Source: Amycolatopsis antarctica
GTDB lineage: Bacteria; Actinomycetota; Actinomycetes; Mycobacteriales; Pseudonocardiaceae
Length of the DNA stretch: 64,000 nucleotides
Direction: 5' to 3'
Assembly: GCF_002262875.1 (NCBI RefSeq)
Contig: NZ_NKYE01000014.1
Location: forward strand, 62,001 to 126,000
Part shown: positions 18,691 through 25,258 of the stretch, one piece after another
How positions within the stretch are numbered: position 1 is the stretch's first letter
Layout: each line of letters opens with the position of its first letter
Translations under genes and position numbers: made by a program
Notes under the pieces: model-generated
The model's database searches: none
Told to the model about the DNA's origin: nothing
Seen by the model: the letters and a program-made list of their open reading frames with translations, nothing else

Positions 18691-19086
18691 TCAGCGGATG
18701 AGGTCGATGGGCACGCCGACGTCCACGCGGGACCAGGGCTGATCGGAGGTGAGTGCGCGGGCGCCGGGCACGGCGGCGGCCAGGGCGAGGCAGGCCCGGT
18801 CGCCGAGGGACAGTCCCGCGCCGCGGGTGGCCGGCCACAGTGCCGCGGTGGCCACGGCCAGCTCGGCGTCGAACGCGGCGACGGTGAGCCCCAGGGAGAT
18901 GAGTGCGCCGACGTCCTCAGCGGCGGTGGTGCTACCGAGCTGGGCAAGCTTCTGCACAGCCTCGGAGTAGTTGACCGCCGAGATCAGCGTCGGCTCGTCG
19001 GAACGCAGGTGGTCGCCGACGATCTCGGCGCCGGGTTCGCCGCGCAGTAGGGCAAGAACGGCGCTGGCATCGAGGACGACGGTCAC
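18691..19086 (-). CDS. vapC: PIN-domain toxin, VapC type
   Basis: 131-aa PIN-domain ribonuclease, the toxin of a VapBC-type module. The acidic catalytic set is present: D6 in VVLDAS, E42 in NYSEAV, D96 in LSLGDRACLA and D115 in LTSDQPW. Family members cut tRNA or rRNA when free of antitoxin. The start overlaps the end of the upstream AbrB-type gene by ATGA, the usual coupling of antitoxin before toxin. The module borders the old end of CRISPR array 1. Confidence 0.88.
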   Translation of the reverse strand: MTVVLDASAVLALLRGEPGAEIVGDHLRSDEPTLISAVNYSEAVQKLAQLGSTTAAEDVGALISLGLTVAAFDAELAVATAALWPATRGAGLSLGDRACLALAAAVPGARALTSDQPWSRVDVGVPIDLIR

Positions 19087-19391
19087 GCCTCACCGTCGAT
19101 CGTGGCGTTGGCGCCGGCGTCCTCGCGGGCGGCTTCGGCACGGCGGTCGGCGATGAGTTCGGCGGAGGCGAGGCCGGTGTGGTGGCCGGTAGCGGCGGCC
19201 ACCCGGGCCTGGACGCGGGCAAGCAAGTGCTCCCACGGTTCGAGGACGACCCGGCCGTCCTCCACCGAGGCGACGAGCTGCTCGCCCGGCTCGATGCCGG
19301 CGGCCCGGCGCAGCGGTGCAGGAATGGTGACCCGGCCGCCCGGTCCGGCGGTCAGGCGGACTTGTGTCGTGTGCGGTTCCGACGCGGTCAT
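19083..19391 (-). CDS. AbrB/MazE-fold antitoxin, VapB-like
   Basis: 102-aa antitoxin. The N-terminal swapped-hairpin DNA-binding motif is clear (VRLTAGPGGRVTIPAPLRRAAGI); the C-terminal helical region (EHLLARVQARVAAATGHH, LIADRRAEAAREDAG) would wrap the toxin. It is upstream of and overlaps vapC by 4 bases. By family rule the complex should repress its own promoter, which would lie in 19392-19526. Symbol withheld because several antitoxin families share this fold. Confidence 0.82.
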   Translation of the reverse strand: MTASEPHTTQVRLTAGPGGRVTIPAPLRRAAGIEPGEQLVASVEDGRVVLEPWEHLLARVQARVAAATGHHTGLASAELIADRRAEAAREDAGANATIDGEA

Positions 19392-19648: not shown

Positions 19649-21574
19649 GGGACCATCCCCGCTGGCGCGGGGAAAACCACAGGGCGAGTTCGGCGATCGA
19701 GCGCCAGGTGGGACCATCCCCGCTGGCGCGGGGAGAACCACGGCCAGGATCGCTGGCGGATGCCGGACCTGGGACCATCCCCGCTGGCGCGAGGAGAACG
19801 AACTCGCCCATCTCAGAGAGCCACCGGGTGCGGGACCATCCCTGCTGGCGCGGGGAGAACCACGGCCAGGATCGCTGGCGGATGCCGGACCTGGGACCAT
19901 CCCCGCTGGCGCGAGGAGAACGAACTCGCCCATCTCAGAGAGCCACCGGGTGCGGGACCATCCCTGCTGGCGCGGGGAGAACCACGGCCAGGATCGCTGG
20001 CGGATGCCGGACCTGGGACCATCCCCGCTGGCGCGAGGAGAACGAACTCGCCCATCTCAGAGAGCCACCGGGTGCGGGACCATCCCTGCTGGCGCGGGGA
20101 GAACTCGTCACCGGTTCCGAGGCGTACGCCGACGTCCGCCTAGGACCATCCCCGCTGGCGCGGGGAGAACGCGGGCACGCCGGCGGGGGAGATCACGGAG
20201 AAGGGACCATCCCCGCTGGCGCGGGGAGAACGATGCCGCTTTTGCCTCGGAAGAACACCACACGGGACCATCCCCGCTGGCGCGGGGAGAACGCCCTGCC
20301 CTGTCGACCCGGTCCCGTCGCCGCGGGACCATCCCCGCTGGCGCGGGGAGAACGAGCTGCGTCACCAGCACCCTGTGCTGGCCCGGGGACCATCCCCGCT
20401 GGCGCGGGGAGAACAGCACCGTGACCGGTCGGGCCTGCACCTCGGCGGGACCATCCCCGCTGGCGCGGGGAGAACACCGGATTTGCCGCGTACGCCGCAG
20501 CCCTGTGGGGACCATCCCCGCTGGCGCGGGGAGAACCCCGCCGTTGATCGATCGGGTCGCCGCTTCCAGGGACCATCCCCGCTGGCGCGGGGAGAACCAG
20601 ATCACCTGGCGCAGGGAAAACGATCACCTGGGACCATCCCCGCTGGCGCGGGGAGAACCCCGCCGTTGATCGATCGGGTCGCCGCTTCCAGGGACCATCC
20701 CCGCTGGCGCGGGGAGAACCAGATCACCTGGCGCAGGGAAAACGATCACCTGGGACCATCCCCGCTGGCGCGGGGAGAACCCCGCCGTTGATCGATCGGG
20801 TCGCCGCTTCCAGGGACCATCCCCGCTGGCGCGGGGAGAACCAGATCACCTGGCGCAGGGAAAACGATCACCTGGGACCATCCCCGCTGGCGCGGGGAGA
20901 ACACCCCGCCACGAAATTTCACTGACCGCGAGACTGGACCATCCCCGCTGGCGCGGGGAGAACAGCAGGCCGACTTGCTCAACATGGTCAGCAGCGTGGA
21001 CCATCCCCGCTGGCGCGGGGAGAACGACCGTGGTGGCGGGGGCGCGCAGTCGGGGGAGGGACCATCCCCGCTGGCGCGGGGAGAACTAGCGAAGGACAGT
21101 GTGCGCCGGATTTTTGAGGGGACCATCCCCGCTGGCGCGGGGAGAACACCCGATGCCAAGGCAACAAACGACCTGACGAGGGACCATCCCCGCTGGCGCG
21201 GGGAGAACGAGTTGGGGCGGTCGTGTGCGACGACCCCGATGGGACCATCCCCGCTGGCGCGGGGAGAACCACACCACCCCCTCATAGGCGGATGTCTGCC
21301 CGGGACCATCCCCGCTGGCGCGGGGAGAACCGTGGCAGCCCTCGGACGGTTCCGGACAACCCAGGACCATCCCCGCTGGCGCGGGGAGAACCACCACATG
21401 CACCTTCCCGGCTGCCTCACCCTGGGACCATCCCCGCTGGCGCGGGGAGAACCCAGGGGTGCCACTCCAACGGGGCAGGTGGTTGGGACCATCCCCGCTG
21501 GCGCGGGGAGAACGGCGCTGGAAATCGCGGGGGGAATGGACCCCGGGGACCATCCCCGCTGGCGCGGGGAGAAC
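19649..21574 (-). CRISPR. type I-E CRISPR array 1 (32 repeats, 31 spacers)
   Basis: 29-base repeats at a 61-base period. In crRNA sense (minus strand) the repeat begins GTTCTCCCCGCGCCAGC and ends GGGGATGGTCCC, with a 6-bp CCCCGC/GCGGGG stem. Leader is at the right, cas side; degenerate repeats at the left mark the trailer. Most spacers are 32 bases; one (20105-20141) is 37 and one (20964-20996) is 33. Repeat variants: GAGG for GGGG (19771, 19893, 20015), CCTGC for CCCGC (19832, 19954, 20076), and altered first base (20142, 20935, 20997, 21363). Two two-spacer units are each present in three tandem copies (19739-20104 and 20537-20902). Processing would be by the adjacent Cas6e. Confidence 0.98.
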
Positions 21575-21620
21575 CCCTTGCTGACCTGCGACGATATCAG
21601 GGCTGAATCGTTAATGTTTG
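21575..21620 (-). promoter_or_regulatory. leader of CRISPR array 1
   Basis: The sequence just outside the cas-proximal repeat is AT-richer than its surroundings. Read on the minus strand it ends CAGGTCAGCAAGGG directly against the first repeat. Array 2 has CAGGTCAACAAGA in the same place, and an upstream CGAT-CAG-CCC segment also aligns. The shared motif marks this as the leader, the site where Cas1-Cas2 adds spacers and where array transcription should begin nearby. Confidence 0.75.
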
Positions 21621-21830
21621 GCGAGTACCGGGAAGCTCTCCGCAGAGACTTCCGATCGGTGCGATTGTGTCGACGTCGTCAGCGTGAACCGTTGGCGTTG
21701 CCTCAGTATGGCGGTCGTCTCGATGCGCGACGCTACCGCTGAAGTGCAGGTCATCACCTGCCGATCACGGGGTGGCGGGACGCCGCGTCCGTTAGGGCTC
21801 CGCTGCTCGTCACGAGCACCCACACTAGTG

Positions 21831-21853
21831 AACAGTTGTACGTTCCCTATTGG
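21831..21853 (+). promoter_or_regulatory. pseudo-spacer target-like site, probable promoter/operator
   Basis: Bases 21834-21853 read AGTTGTACGTTCCCTATTGG. The pseudo-spacer 110 bases downstream begins AGTTGAACGTTTCCTTTCGG: 16 of 20 identical, mismatches at 6, 12, 16 and 18. The three bases 5' of the match are AAC, where a type I-E PAM would be. The site also contains an inverted repeat GAAC-N8-GTTC (21830-21845) and a -35-like TTGTAC, in a low-GC stretch between the array 1 leader and cas3. A promoter controlled by Cascade is inferred. Confidence 0.5.
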
Positions 21854-21908
21854 AAAATACACCACTGTGCTTAAGGTGCTTCCGTGAAGGTGAGAGTCGA
21901 GGACCGCA

Positions 21909-22003
21909 AGCTCCTCCCGGCATTGCAGGCCGGGTTGGTCCAAGTTGAACGTTTCCTTTCGGGGGCACGTCCAGGTGATCCCCGCGCAAGCGGGGACGGT
22001 GGT
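21909..22003 (+). ncRNA. crRNA-like regulatory RNA (CreA/CreR-like candidate): degenerate repeat - 32-nt pseudo-spacer - degenerate repeat
   Basis: Left pseudo-repeat (about 21909-21942) has GCTCC, a CCCGGC/GCCGGG stem with an enlarged loop, then TTGGTCCA like the 3' end of a true repeat. The pseudo-spacer is exactly 32 bases (21943-21974). The right pseudo-repeat (21975-22003, GTGATCCCCGCGCAAGCGGG...) matches the array 2 repeat at 23 of 29 positions, differing at 4, 14, 23 and 27-29. Orientation is that of array 2. Both stems survive, so Cas6e could process it. The pseudo-spacer partly matches a site just upstream. In CreTA/CreR systems such RNAs send Cascade to repress a nearby promoter without cleavage. 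No other function is evident; transcription is not shown. Confidence 0.6.
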
Positions 22004-22039
22004 TGCTGCGCCGGAGTGCGACATGCTCCGGCGCAGCAA
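22003..22039 (+). terminator. strong hairpin after the crRNA-like unit
   Basis: Perfect 14-bp stem, TTGCTGCGCCGGAG (22003-22016) against CTCCGGCGCAGCAA (22026-22039), with a 9-base loop. It abuts the right pseudo-repeat and lacks a T-run. It could end the small RNA or attenuate read-through into the small membrane ORF and cas3. Confidence 0.7.
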
Positions 22040-22061
22040 GGTCCGAAAGGTGGGGAGAACG

Positions 22062-22286
22062 GTGGGTTCCGAGCGTAAACGTCCGATCTTCCCTCGATCG
22101 CTGGCCATCGGTATCGCGTCAATTGTTGTCGGATATCTGGCTTTTAATGTCGCTGTGGCGAGGGTGCTGGACGCGTCGCAGGTTGTCGACTCGCAGGTTG
22201 TGCAGGCTGCTATGCAGCAAGGATTAATGGCGTTCATCTCGGTCGCTGCGATCTCCGCGTTCGGACTTCATCGAGTCGTCCACTGA
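22062..22286 (+). CDS. small two-helix membrane protein upstream of cas3
   Basis: 74-aa ORF from GTG 22062 with a good ribosome binding site (AGGTGGGGAG). After a basic N-terminus (GSERKRPIFPRS) there are two hydrophobic segments: about residues 13-36 (LAIGIASIVVGYLAFNVAVA) and 54-72 (LMAFISVAAISAFGLHRVV). No family recognised. Lower GC than the cas genes. It lies between the crRNA-like unit with its hairpin and cas3, 170 bases before the cas3 start. It might be an accessory or toxin-like membrane protein controlled with the CRISPR locus, but this rests on position only. A longer in-frame extension upstream runs through the pseudo-repeat and is rejected. Confidence 0.55.
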   Translation: MGSERKRPIFPRSLAIGIASIVVGYLAFNVAVARVLDASQVVDSQVVQAAMQQGLMAFISVAAISAFGLHRVVH

Positions 22287-22456
22287 CTTTCTTCGAATGG
22301 TTTGTTGTTTACGCGATTGCGGGGAATGTCGGTGCGATGTGTCCGGCAGGGCCATTTGGGTGATCGCCGTCGGCAGGGAGTAACGGTTCCAGCGCTCCAC
22401 CGAATGTCATGTCAGCGGACGACGCCCGAGGGATCGGACCAGGAGGGGGCGAGGTG

Positions 22457-25258
22457 ATGGACGAGCGATATTGGTTGTCGCCATGGGGAAAAACGAGCCG
22501 TGACGACCAGGGGTCGGTGACCGGATGGTTGCCCTTGCTGCAACACCTCGACGATACCGCGGCGGTGGCCAGGCGAATCGTGGACGAGTGGCTACCACGG
22601 CAAGTGGTTTCCCGCGTTTGTGATTCCATGCCGGGCGGAGAGGGTACTTTCCGTACGCTGATTTTCTGGTTGGCGAGCGTGCACGACGTGGGAAAGGCGA
22701 GCCCTGCGTTCGCTGTACAGGATCGTCGGCTCGCGGATCGAATGAGCCGATTCGGGCTGCCGGTGAATCCGGCGTTGGCGCAGGACCCGAATCGTGCGGC
22801 CGTATCGCATCAGCTTGTCGGTCATTCCGCTGTCCGGTCGTGGTTGACGAAAGAATTGTTCGTCGTATCGGGCGATATCGCGGTGCAGCTCGCCTCGATT
22901 GTGGGCAGCCATCACGGTGTCGCCCCGGAACGGACCCAGCTCGCCTTGGTCCGGCAGCATCCGGAACTGAGCGGAGGTGCCGTATGGCAGTCCGCCAGGA
23001 CGGAGATCCTGCGGCGGGCCACCCGGCGCGCCGCCCCTGAACTGCTTGCTCCATTGGCTGGACATCGACTGGACAGGCCGACGATGGTGCTGCTGTCCGG
23101 CCTGGTCATCATGGCCGACTGGATCGCCTCGAACGACGACCTGTTTCCCATGCAGGAACTGGCGACCATGGAAGACGTTCCCGCCGAACCCGACGAGGAC
23201 CGCACCGCGGAGCGCGCCGCCTATGGCTGGTCACGGCTCGCGCTGCCGCCTCGGTGGGTACCGGCGCCGGCGGATACCGATCTGACCGGCACCTTCCGTC
23301 GCAGGTTTCCGGCGATCGACGTTCCGCGACCGGTACAGGTCGCCGCTGTCGAGTTGGTCCGCGCCGAGCCGGAACCGGGGATGCTCATCATCGAGGCGCC
23401 GATGGGCGTCGGGAAGACCGAAGTCTCGCTGGTGGTCGCGGAGGAGCAGGCTCGCAAGTCCGGGGCCGGTGGTTGTGTCGTCGCCCTGCCCACCCAGGCC
23501 ACCACCGACGCCATGTTCGGCCGGATACATCAGTGGCTGACCGCGTTGCCGCGCAACGAATCCGACATCGCACTGACGGTGGCACTCGCGCATGGCAAAG
23601 CGATGCTGAACGACGAGTACGCAGGATTGGTACGGGCAGGACGATTCGCCGACATCGGCGAGAACCGCGAGCGGGATAGCAGCGAGACGCTGATCGCGCA
23701 CCAGTGGCTGAGCGGCCGGAAAAAGGGGCCACTGGCCTCGTTCCTGGTGTGCACGATCGATCAGATTTTGGTCGGTGCATTGAAAAGCCGGCACGTGATG
23801 CTGCGGCACCTCGCGCTGGCAGGCAAAGTCGTCATTATCGACGAAGTGCACGCCTATGACGTGTACATGTCGCAGTACCTGCACCGCATTCTGCGTTGGC
23901 TCGGTGCCTATCACGTTCCCGTGGTGCTGCTGTCAGCGACACTGCCGCCGGTCAGACGGGCGGAACTGCTGAGCGCCTATGCGGAAGGCAGGGGCCGCGA
24001 ACCAGTTATTCCGGCAGTGGAAACGGTGGGCTATCCGGCGGTTATCAGCTCGACGGGCACGGTGCGCACCGTACCGGCACCGGCAGGCGCAACCGTGCGT
24101 CTCGACCGGCTCCCGGACGATCCGGACACACTGGTGCGGTACCTGCGGACCAAGCTGGCCGATGGGGGATGCGCCGCCGTGGTGCGCAACACCGTAACCC
24201 GGGTGCAGGAAACCGCCGACCGGTTGATCGCGGAATTCGGCGAGAACGCGGTCACGGTGAACCATTCCCGTTTCCTCGCCTGCGATCGAGCCCGAATCGA
24301 CCGGGGACTGGTGCGGCGCTTCGGCCCACCGGGGGAAGGCAACGACCGGCGTGGCCCGCACATCGTGGTCGCCTCGCAAGTGCTGGAGCAGTCACTGGAC
24401 GTCGACTTCGACGTACTGGTCACCGACCTGGCCCCAGCCGACCTGCTGTTGCAACGGATCGGCAGGCTGCACCGGCACGAACGCACACGCCCGGCCGGAG
24501 TGAGCGAGCCGCACTGTGCGATCACCGGCGTCGAGGATTGGGCGGCGGCCCCGGTGCGCGCCGTGTCCGACGTCCGTCGCATCTACGGCGAGCACACCTT
24601 GCTCCGCTCAGCGGCACTGTTCGCCGAACGTGACACGGTCGCGTTGCCCGCCGACATTCCCGAGATCGTGCGTGACGCCTACGAAGACGTGCCCCTCGGC
24701 CCGGCAAGTTGGCAGGAGGCGATGGTCACCGCCGCGAACGCCGCACGGCTCCGCGCCGCCGAACGCACGTCCAAGGCACACACCTTCATCCTCGGCGACC
24801 CCCACAGCGTGGAACCGAGCCTGGTCGGCTGGTTACGCGCGGGTGTGGGGGACGCGGAAGGCCCGGACGGCATGGCGCAGGTCAGGGATGGCGAGGAATC
24901 CCTGGAAGTCCTGGTCGTGCAGGGAGACTCAGACGGCGGTTTGCTGACTCCCGAGTGGATCGAACGCGGTGGCGGACAACAGTTGCCCCTGGACGAGCCG
25001 CTGCCGCACGACCTGGCGCGAATCGTCGCGGCGTGCGCGCTACGGCTGCCCCTTGCGTTGTCCCACGGTGGTGTCATCGACAAGGTGATCGCCTCGCTGG
25101 AGAACACGAAACCGACCAGCTTCGCCGTCACCCGCCTGTTGGCCGGGCAACTCGTGCTGGTACTCGACCAGGACCGGCGTGCCGAGATTCTCGCCGGTGA
25201 CGCGACATTCGCACTCACGTACGACCCGCGAAGAGGACTCGTCCATGAACGAATCTGA
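22457..25258 (+). CDS. cas3: CRISPR-associated helicase/nuclease Cas3 (type I-E)
   Basis: 933-aa Cas3, which unwinds and degrades DNA opened by Cascade. The N-terminal HD nuclease is complete: H30, H76-D77 (LASVHDVGK), the SHQLVGHSAV segment and the HH pair in VGSHHGV. The helicase follows: Walker A APMGVGKTE near 313, DEVH near 461, SAT in LLSATLP, and QVLEQSLDVDFD...QRIGRLHRH (motifs V/VI). A C-terminal domain completes the usual length. ATG 22457 follows AGGAGGGGGCGAGG; an upstream ATG (22409) in frame has no comparable site. First gene of the operon; its 3' end overlaps cse1 by 14 bases. Confidence 0.97.
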   Translation: MDERYWLSPWGKTSRDDQGSVTGWLPLLQHLDDTAAVARRIVDEWLPRQVVSRVCDSMPGGEGTFRTLIFWLASVHDVGKASPAFAVQDRRLADRMSRFGLPVNPALAQDPNRAAVSHQLVGHSAVRSWLTKELFVVSGDIAVQLASIVGSHHGVAPERTQLALVRQHPELSGGAVWQSARTEILRRATRRAAPELLAPLAGHRLDRPTMVLLSGLVIMADWIASNDDLFPMQELATMEDVPAEPDEDRTAERAAYGWSRLALPPRWVPAPADTDLTGTFRRRFPAIDVPRPVQVAAVELVRAEPEPGMLIIEAPMGVGKTEVSLVVAEEQARKSGAGGCVVALPTQATTDAMFGRIHQWLTALPRNESDIALTVALAHGKAMLNDEYAGLVRAGRFADIGENRERDSSETLIAHQWLSGRKKGPLASFLVCTIDQILVGALKSRHVMLRHLALAGKVVIIDEVHAYDVYMSQYLHRILRWLGAYHVPVVLLSATLPPVRRAELLSAYAEGRGREPVIPAVETVGYPAVISSTGTVRTVPAPAGATVRLDRLPDDPDTLVRYLRTKLADGGCAAVVRNTVTRVQETADRLIAEFGENAVTVNHSRFLACDRARIDRGLVRRFGPPGEGNDRRGPHIVVASQVLEQSLDVDFDVLVTDLAPADLLLQRIGRLHRHERTRPAGVSEPHCAITGVEDWAAAPVRAVSDVRRIYGEHTLLRSAALFAERDTVALPADIPEIVRDAYEDVPLGPASWQEAMVTAANAARLRAAERTSKAHTFILGDPHSVEPSLVGWLRAGVGDAEGPDGMAQVRDGEESLEVLVVQGDSDGGLLTPEWIERGGGQQLPLDEPLPHDLARIVAACALRLPLALSHGGVIDKVIASLENTKPTSFAVTRLLAGQLVLVLDQDRRAEILAGDATFALTYDPRRGLVHERI

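Follow-up and report, generated by a model that had tools for sequence, protein, structure and literature searches.

The lone unit and its target

The window (the whole stretch of Amycolatopsis antarctica DNA analysed here, 64 kb) holds a complete type I-E operon (Table 1). In the stretch that separates its cas3 from the right end of array 1, the plus strand carries a lone unit made of psiR1, a guide and psiR2. A sequence-only reading had described this pseudo-repeat, 32-nt guide and pseudo-repeat, and direct reading confirmed it, including a psiR2 that shares 23 of 29 bases with the array-2 repeat. The first repeat, psiR1, agrees with the array-2 repeat at 16 of 29 bases (10 of the first 21 nt and 6 of the 8-nt handle) and carries a hairpin, CCCGGC-7 nt-GCCGGG, followed by the handle TTGGTCCA, whereas psiR2 agrees at 19 of the first 21 nt and at 4 of 8 bases of the handle. 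The repeats are divergent and degenerate in the manner of CreA/CreR-type units, with the 5' handle kept in psiR1 and the stem part in psiR2. An ordinary CRISPR mini-array was considered and rejected, as it needs near-identical repeats beside a leader and these two repeats are identical at only 13 of 29 positions.

Table 1. Features of the unit, its target and the neighbouring genes, in window coordinates.
Feature	Position	Strand	Basis or detail
PAM AAC of the guide's target	21831..21833	+	Sequence; AA-type PAM general among relatives
Target (pseudo-protospacer) AGTTGTACGTTCCCTATTGG	21834..21853	+	Seed 10/10, positions 13-17 4/5
Possible promoter overlapping target: TTGGAA, 16 nt, TAAGGT	21850..21877	+	Guess by eye; absent from consensus scan
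psiR1, degenerate first repeat	21914..21942	+	Hairpin 21916-21934; 8-nt handle TTGGTCCA at 21935-21942
Pseudo-spacer, 32-nt guide	21943..21974	+	Sequence read directly
psiR2, degenerate second repeat	21975..22003	+	23/29 bases as in array-2 repeat
14-bp hairpin, possible terminator or attenuator between unit and membrane ORF	22003..22039	+	
74-aa ORF, likely regulated gene	22062..22286	+	GTG start, GGGGAG before start; two predicted helices
cas3 of complete type I-E operon (cas3, cse1, cse2, cas7, cas5, cas6e, cas1, cas2)	cas3 22460..25258, operon to 31437	+	

The guide agrees with the target at 16 of 20 positions, with mismatches at 6, 12, 16 and 18 and AAC directly 5' of the site. Seed positions 1-5 and 7-11 are all paired, and matches run out near positions 17-20. 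As a control, guides were shuffled in composition and scored for a 10/10 seed plus four of the five positions 13-17. Within 1.5 kb on either side, none of 20,000 shuffled guides reached this level, with or without the PAM; within 21575-22460, none of 20,000 did so with the PAM and one of 20,000 without it; over the whole window the counts were 0 of 2,000 and 2 of 2,000, respectively. Additionally, the PAM plus seed pattern AANAGTTGNACGTT has a single occurrence in the 6,342,753-base assembly. The match that the sequence-only reading had pointed out is therefore real and, by the shuffles, beyond chance.

Positions 21825-21885, which include the target, are 44% GC in a window of 70% GC, a value that places them in the bottom 17 when 12,788 stretches of 61 nt are ranked by GC. 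A sigma-70 consensus scan found no promoter anywhere in 21580-22480, the target included, and its sole terminator-like match falls inside the 74-aa membrane ORF. Rfam at gathering thresholds gave no match in the window. The target begins 626 nt before cas3, with the 74-aa ORF in between.

Within array 1, repeat-spacer pairs are duplicated in tandem at 20508-20963 and 19710-20104 (122-nt units, about three copies each), and an internal stretch of the array-1 spacer CAGATCACCTGGCGCAGGGAAAACGATCACCT (20597-20631 and two further copies) resembles the second half of the repeat. Just past the far end of this array, at 18691-19391 on the minus strand, a PIN-domain ORF and an overlapping MazE-like antitoxin ORF form a VapBC-like pair.

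Guide and target across relatives

Regions preceding type I-E cas3 were collected from cas3 relatives (the best 80 of 232) and, among 104 family genomes with a cas3 match, from at least 30 loci and 36 further stretches. The resulting 151 regions collapsed to 123 distinct ones, a few of them non-actinobacterial by title (L066, L081). In a first test on 88 regions, a set not reduced to distinct regions, a site with an AA-type PAM and a 10/10 seed was present for 8 of the 32 units that stand alone, where shuffled guides would give 0.0, and for none of 664 array units (0.08 expected). From a looser scan of the 123 distinct regions came 20 loci, where about 0.05 would be expected. A further scan, free of any PAM requirement, covered 107 units in 132 mostly actinobacterial regions; 26 of these units had a matching site (0.7 expected), leaving 81 without a target by this test. 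The 132 comprise the 123 distinct regions and L171-L179, which were chosen for a membrane-protein profile match, are therefore non-random, and give 2 of the 27 sites. Some loci entered by other routes: L031 and L116 were first spotted by eye and later satisfied the scan; L029, L048, L068, L075 and a second L023 site (AAT) satisfied only the looser scan, by its pairing or unit rule; and the modules of L178 and L172 were recognized by eye only.

The PAM contained AA at 26 of 27 sites (17 AAC, 6 AAG, 2 AAT and 1 AAA), against a background of 3.0% for AA-type PAMs; the remaining site, in L023, has TTG and was excluded from the tally of positions. Across the 26 AA sites, which lie in 25 loci, positions 6, 12 and 18 match 8, 6 and 7 times, near one quarter, whereas the other positions of 1-17 are matched in 17-26 of 26 sites (17-22 for positions 13-17), and the match is weak from position 19 onwards. 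As positions 1-11, and in part 13-17, were selection criteria, most can be learned from the PAM and the free positions. No pair among the 25 guides shares more than 10 of its first 17 bases. The guides are thus mutually unrelated and yet each matches its own target, showing that guide and target change together. Such co-variation, which the sequence-only reading had proposed to look for among related strains, was found in 24 loci besides the window, and it runs between species rather than strains. Of the two nearest Cas3 relatives, L004 has a unit and target, and none was found in L003.

Guide length varies among these units: 15 of the 26 sites belong to units with spacers of 31-35 nt, and the other 11 come with spacers of 19-25 nt, 20 nt in six cases. 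These counts may be off by one through the stem offset, as the window's 32 nt was scored as 31. Natural guides of about 19-22 nt were seen in L022, L031, L032, L033, L048 (by eye), L049, L061, L085, L088, L112 and L116, roughly two Cas7 footprints shorter than 32 nt. In L009 the same guide has two adjacent sites on opposite strands, at -286 and -253 before cas3, both with AAC.

A small membrane ORF beside the target

The 74-aa ORF, which has a good ribosome site, is predicted to fold into helices at residues 11-37 and 44-73 (mean pLDDT 79). It had no match in Pfam at E 0.1 and none in NCBIfam, and a protein database search returned only the ORF itself; for the membrane proteins as a group, Pfam, PHROGs and PADLOC offered no convincing family. 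Relatives of 81-92 aa lie between target and cas3 in L004, L022, L031, L061, L103, L112, L116 and L134, with L112 a weak member (E 0.47 before joining the profile), and the hydrophobic ORFs of L029 (83 aa) and L049 (71 aa) have weaker or presumed kinship. A leave-one-out profile built from ten relatives ranked the 74-aa ORF first of 658 window ORFs (E 0.0081; next 0.4), a modest value that suggests a weak, distant member of the family. Searched against the protein database, profile A2 retrieved five proteins, including the window's own and two identical to A2 members (P0002, P0004). Another, named as an Amycolatopsis sulphurea hypothetical protein, is the same in sequence as the C-terminal 68 residues of the L004 ORF; the one new homologue is an A. 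panacis hypothetical protein.

The family is linked to cas loci and also goes beyond CRISPR loci. In a profile search of 386 family genomes, 10 of the 13 matches at E <1e-9 were the profile's own members; as these had been taken from beside cas3, such top matches prove nothing. Among nine new loci (L171-L179), L172, L173, L176 and L178 lie in type I-E cas loci. As a cas locus is a tiny fraction of a genome, four of nine represents a strong link. The other five (L171, L174, L175, L177, L179) are outside cas loci as far as examined (L171 by a 9-kb tblastn search, the rest by eye), and L174 is about 58 kb from the cas3 of its genome. A class-wide search of 394 genomes found the window and one other genome, the latter with no cas gene in a 3.2-kb stretch; with only two genomes from 394, the family looks narrow. 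Around the weaker two-helix homologues in L174, L175, L177, L179 and L197, neither an array nor a cas gene was seen in the sequence read (tblastn for cas genes was limited to L197); by eye, some have HTH-like or DnaB-like ORFs as neighbours and the same kind of GC-rich hairpin ahead of the start.

The position of the ORF relative to the target is consistent. In all 14 modules measured, which were picked for having both parts, the target lies 112-313 nt before the hydrophobic ORF, and the guide starts anywhere from 191 nt before to 131 nt after the target start; L062 was excluded, its hydrophobic frame having no ATG, GTG or TTG before the first helix. A strong hairpin precedes the ORF in 7 of the 14 (the window and 6 of 13 others), a weak one in L176, and none was found by script in six. 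Upstream of cas3, a hydrophobic ORF is associated with a unit and target (13 of 30 regions versus 15 of 93, Fisher p 0.005, on a list merged by hand from two scans in which one of the 13 is a PIN ORF). Unit and target are absent from 17 of the 30 regions with a hydrophobic ORF before cas3, and four ORFs among those 17 resemble the family (L034, L115, L119, L124).

Three modules lie away from the cas3 promoter. That of L176/L193 is placed between cas3 and cse1. The module of L173/L191 is on the strand opposite to the cas genes, about 1.5 kb beyond cas2 with an array in between, and that of L178/L192 is on the opposite strand too, beyond cas6e and adjoining a cas3 C-terminal fragment. Their own target is the only full-seed site with an AA-type PAM in the 7-14 kb examined, and their guides have no 9/10 or 10/10 seed site in the 1.5, 1.5 and 2.7 kb upstream of cas3 in the same genome. 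As these modules keep the membrane ORF and have no site upstream of cas3, the membrane ORF, and not cas3, is the constant neighbour of the target in this group. The sequence-only reading had offered two toxin candidates. Its 74-aa membrane ORF gains ground as the regulated gene, since relatives keep a two-helix ORF a short way after the target even if the unit has changed place or has no cas3 downstream, whereas its 6-codon frame in 21856-21908 gained no support.

Other genes occupy this slot in some relatives. In L072 the ORF that begins 47 nt past the left edge of the target has a PIN domain (E 3.6e-13), and in L085 the one that begins 60 nt past it matches DUF3800 (E 5.2e-10). No antitoxin ORF was noticed by eye beside the PIN-domain ORF. 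The target lies 87-303 nt before the cas3 match in six further loci (L009, L021, L053, L078, L080 and L088), and no ORF that reached 40 aa and had a ribosome site was found in the interval; these look like CreR. The ORF survey of target loci omitted L077. In L172, where the reading frame of cas3 is split, the module before cas3 has a weaker match (8/10 plus 5/5, by eye), as if locus and guide were decaying together.

Likely repression by Cascade and its possible payload

We take the unit to be a guide of the CreA/CreR type, through which type I-E Cascade likely represses. Haloarchaeal CreA is reported to pair at seed positions 1-5 and 7-11, leaving 6 and 12 free (PMC8501985), and the window guide likewise combines seed pairing beside a PAM, free positions 6 and 12, and short pairing, the standard of "too short to cleave" being borrowed from E. 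coli. In the type I-E system of E. coli, interference is reported to need more than 18 bp of pairing, and binding less (PMC5904413). Pairing in the window extends to about position 17, below this minimum, and binding without cleavage would thus be expected. Our assignment therefore draws on pairing too short for interference and above the need for binding, on a seed pattern like that of haloarchaeal CreA, and on unrelated guides that co-vary with their targets while positions 6, 12 and 18 are random. The seed pattern, together with the pattern across the family, lends support to the Cascade-style partial pairing by a CreA/CreR-type unit that the sequence-only reading had put forward.

With moderate confidence, we favour a reading in which a CreA-type guide holds Cascade, without cutting, at 21834-21853 and represses the unit as well as the membrane ORF, whose product may be toxic. 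The unit would be transcribed and its RNA processed by Cas6e, and the guide RNA would load into type I-E Cascade, which would sit on this likely promoter region without cleaving it. Bound Cascade would then repress the unit itself and 22062-22286 downstream. Failure of Cascade would release the possible membrane toxin, and read-through into cas3, about 170 nt past the ORF, would add cas autoregulation. We infer the promoter in the target region, transcription, Cas6e processing, Cascade binding and repression; toxicity of the membrane protein is predicted only. The short distance from target to ORF and the three modules away from the cas3 promoter indicate that the membrane ORF is likely the regulated gene, and thus a candidate Cascade-repressed toxin. 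A toxin payload is favoured by the PIN and DUF3800 genes that fill the slot in two relatives and by a translated type I-E CreTA toxin in Citrobacter rodentium, and autoregulation by the possible read-through to cas3 and by the CreR-like relatives.

CreR has been reported in type I-E (PMC13131331), and the type I-E system of C. rodentium carries a CreTA-like module (PMC12055562). These published cases are missing from the sequence-only reading's remark that CreTA is best known from haloarchaeal type I-B. Like CreR, which represses transcription, the window has a mini-CRISPR guide with partial complementarity near the cas genes of a type I-E system (PMC13131331, PMC12737573); unlike CreR, its target precedes a small membrane ORF and not cas3 directly, and the modules of three relatives are not upstream of cas3. 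It shares with the type I-B CreTA of Haloarcula two divergent pseudo-repeats, the seed pattern, a target PAM and a guide adjoining the regulated gene, and differs in that the two characterized haloarchaeal CreTs are tRNA-sequestering RNAs, whereas the candidate here is a translated two-helix protein in a type I-E system (PMC8501985, PMC9458426). The C. rodentium module, also type I-E, is described as a Cascade-repressed, protein-coding toxin ORF of 96 bp in the cas3-casA gap and has, as in the window, a partial match with a canonical PAM near a predicted promoter (PMC12055562). Unlike in the window, its antitoxin is on the opposite strand, and its ORF has 31 codons, with no homologue reported (PMC12055562), against 74-92 aa in the two-helix ORFs here. 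In CrePA, the toxin gene under repression by CreA and Cascade codes for a protein, CreP, which typically carries a KilA-N domain (PMC12737573). CrePA was rejected for the window, as it needs a KilA-N protein and the 74-aa ORF is a small membrane ORF with no Pfam match at all. Small membrane cargo of this kind had no description among the open-access literature matches listed. CreR and CreTA are already known in type I-E, and the membrane cargo looks new.

The main rival reading is cas autoregulation, in which Cascade, directed to the targeted promoter by a CreR guide, represses the cas operon that encodes it, and the membrane ORF is an accessory or a passenger. Autorepression of this kind is described for types I-B, I-E and V-A in a review (PMC13131331), cas3 follows on the same strand about 170 nt after the ORF, and the six relatives with a target 87-303 nt before cas3 and no ORF found between fit it. 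However, like modules sit off the cas3 promoter (on the other strand in L173/L191 and L178/L192, between cas3 and cse1 in L176/L193), the guides of these modules have no seed site upstream of cas3 and keep the membrane ORF as constant partner of the target, and the gap ahead of cas3 could house a separate promoter. We consider this reading possible for the window, and less likely than the one favoured above.

Far less probable is a dead remnant of array decay, with the upstream match a coincidence or an old self-targeting spacer. Both repeats are degenerate, and the window's guide-target pair has no close relative for comparison; however, chance is very unlikely at the sequence level, such sites occur in 0 of 664 array units, and the decay is lopsided as in creA genes, with the handle kept in psiR1 and the stem in psiR2 (PMC8501985). 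About as improbable is CreTA proper, in which the interval from target to unit would encode the toxin, a tiny RNA or a mini-ORF such as GTG-CTT-AAG-GTG-CTT-CCG-TGA, as in haloarchaea: short ORFs do lie within two characterized haloarchaeal CreT RNAs (PMC8501985) and the 6-codon frame is present in the window, but by eye it has neither the AGA or AUA codon pair of published mini-ORFs nor a Shine-Dalgarno sequence, it overlaps the guessed -10, and in relatives the target-to-guide offset ranges from -191 to +131 nt while the membrane ORF is retained.

Returning to the reading with Cascade held at the target and a membrane ORF under its control, we tentatively extend it to an actinobacterial type I-E family of 8-kDa, two-helix, Cascade-repressed membrane toxins. 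The CreA guide would be the sole antitoxin, and the toxins would be freed by anti-CRISPRs or loss of Cascade. The slot would alternatively hold PIN or DUF3800 genes, and a guide often of about 20 nt would make a naturally shortened repressor Cascade. This extension is quite possible, and we hold it less firmly than the reading for the window.

With this finding, RNA-guided self-control of CRISPR-Cas would reach into the type I-E systems of actinobacteria. It also offers a clean and testable code: five pairs, one free, five pairs, one free and five pairs, behind an AA-type PAM. With about 25 guide-target pairs whose guides are unrelated, comparison alone can test the seed rules of natural Cascade repression. 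Should the membrane protein prove toxic, it would represent a new class of toxin that guards CRISPR, and the PIN and DUF3800 genes would be alternative cargo. If the membrane-toxin reading is true, anti-CRISPRs or loss of Cascade would release a membrane-damaging protein.
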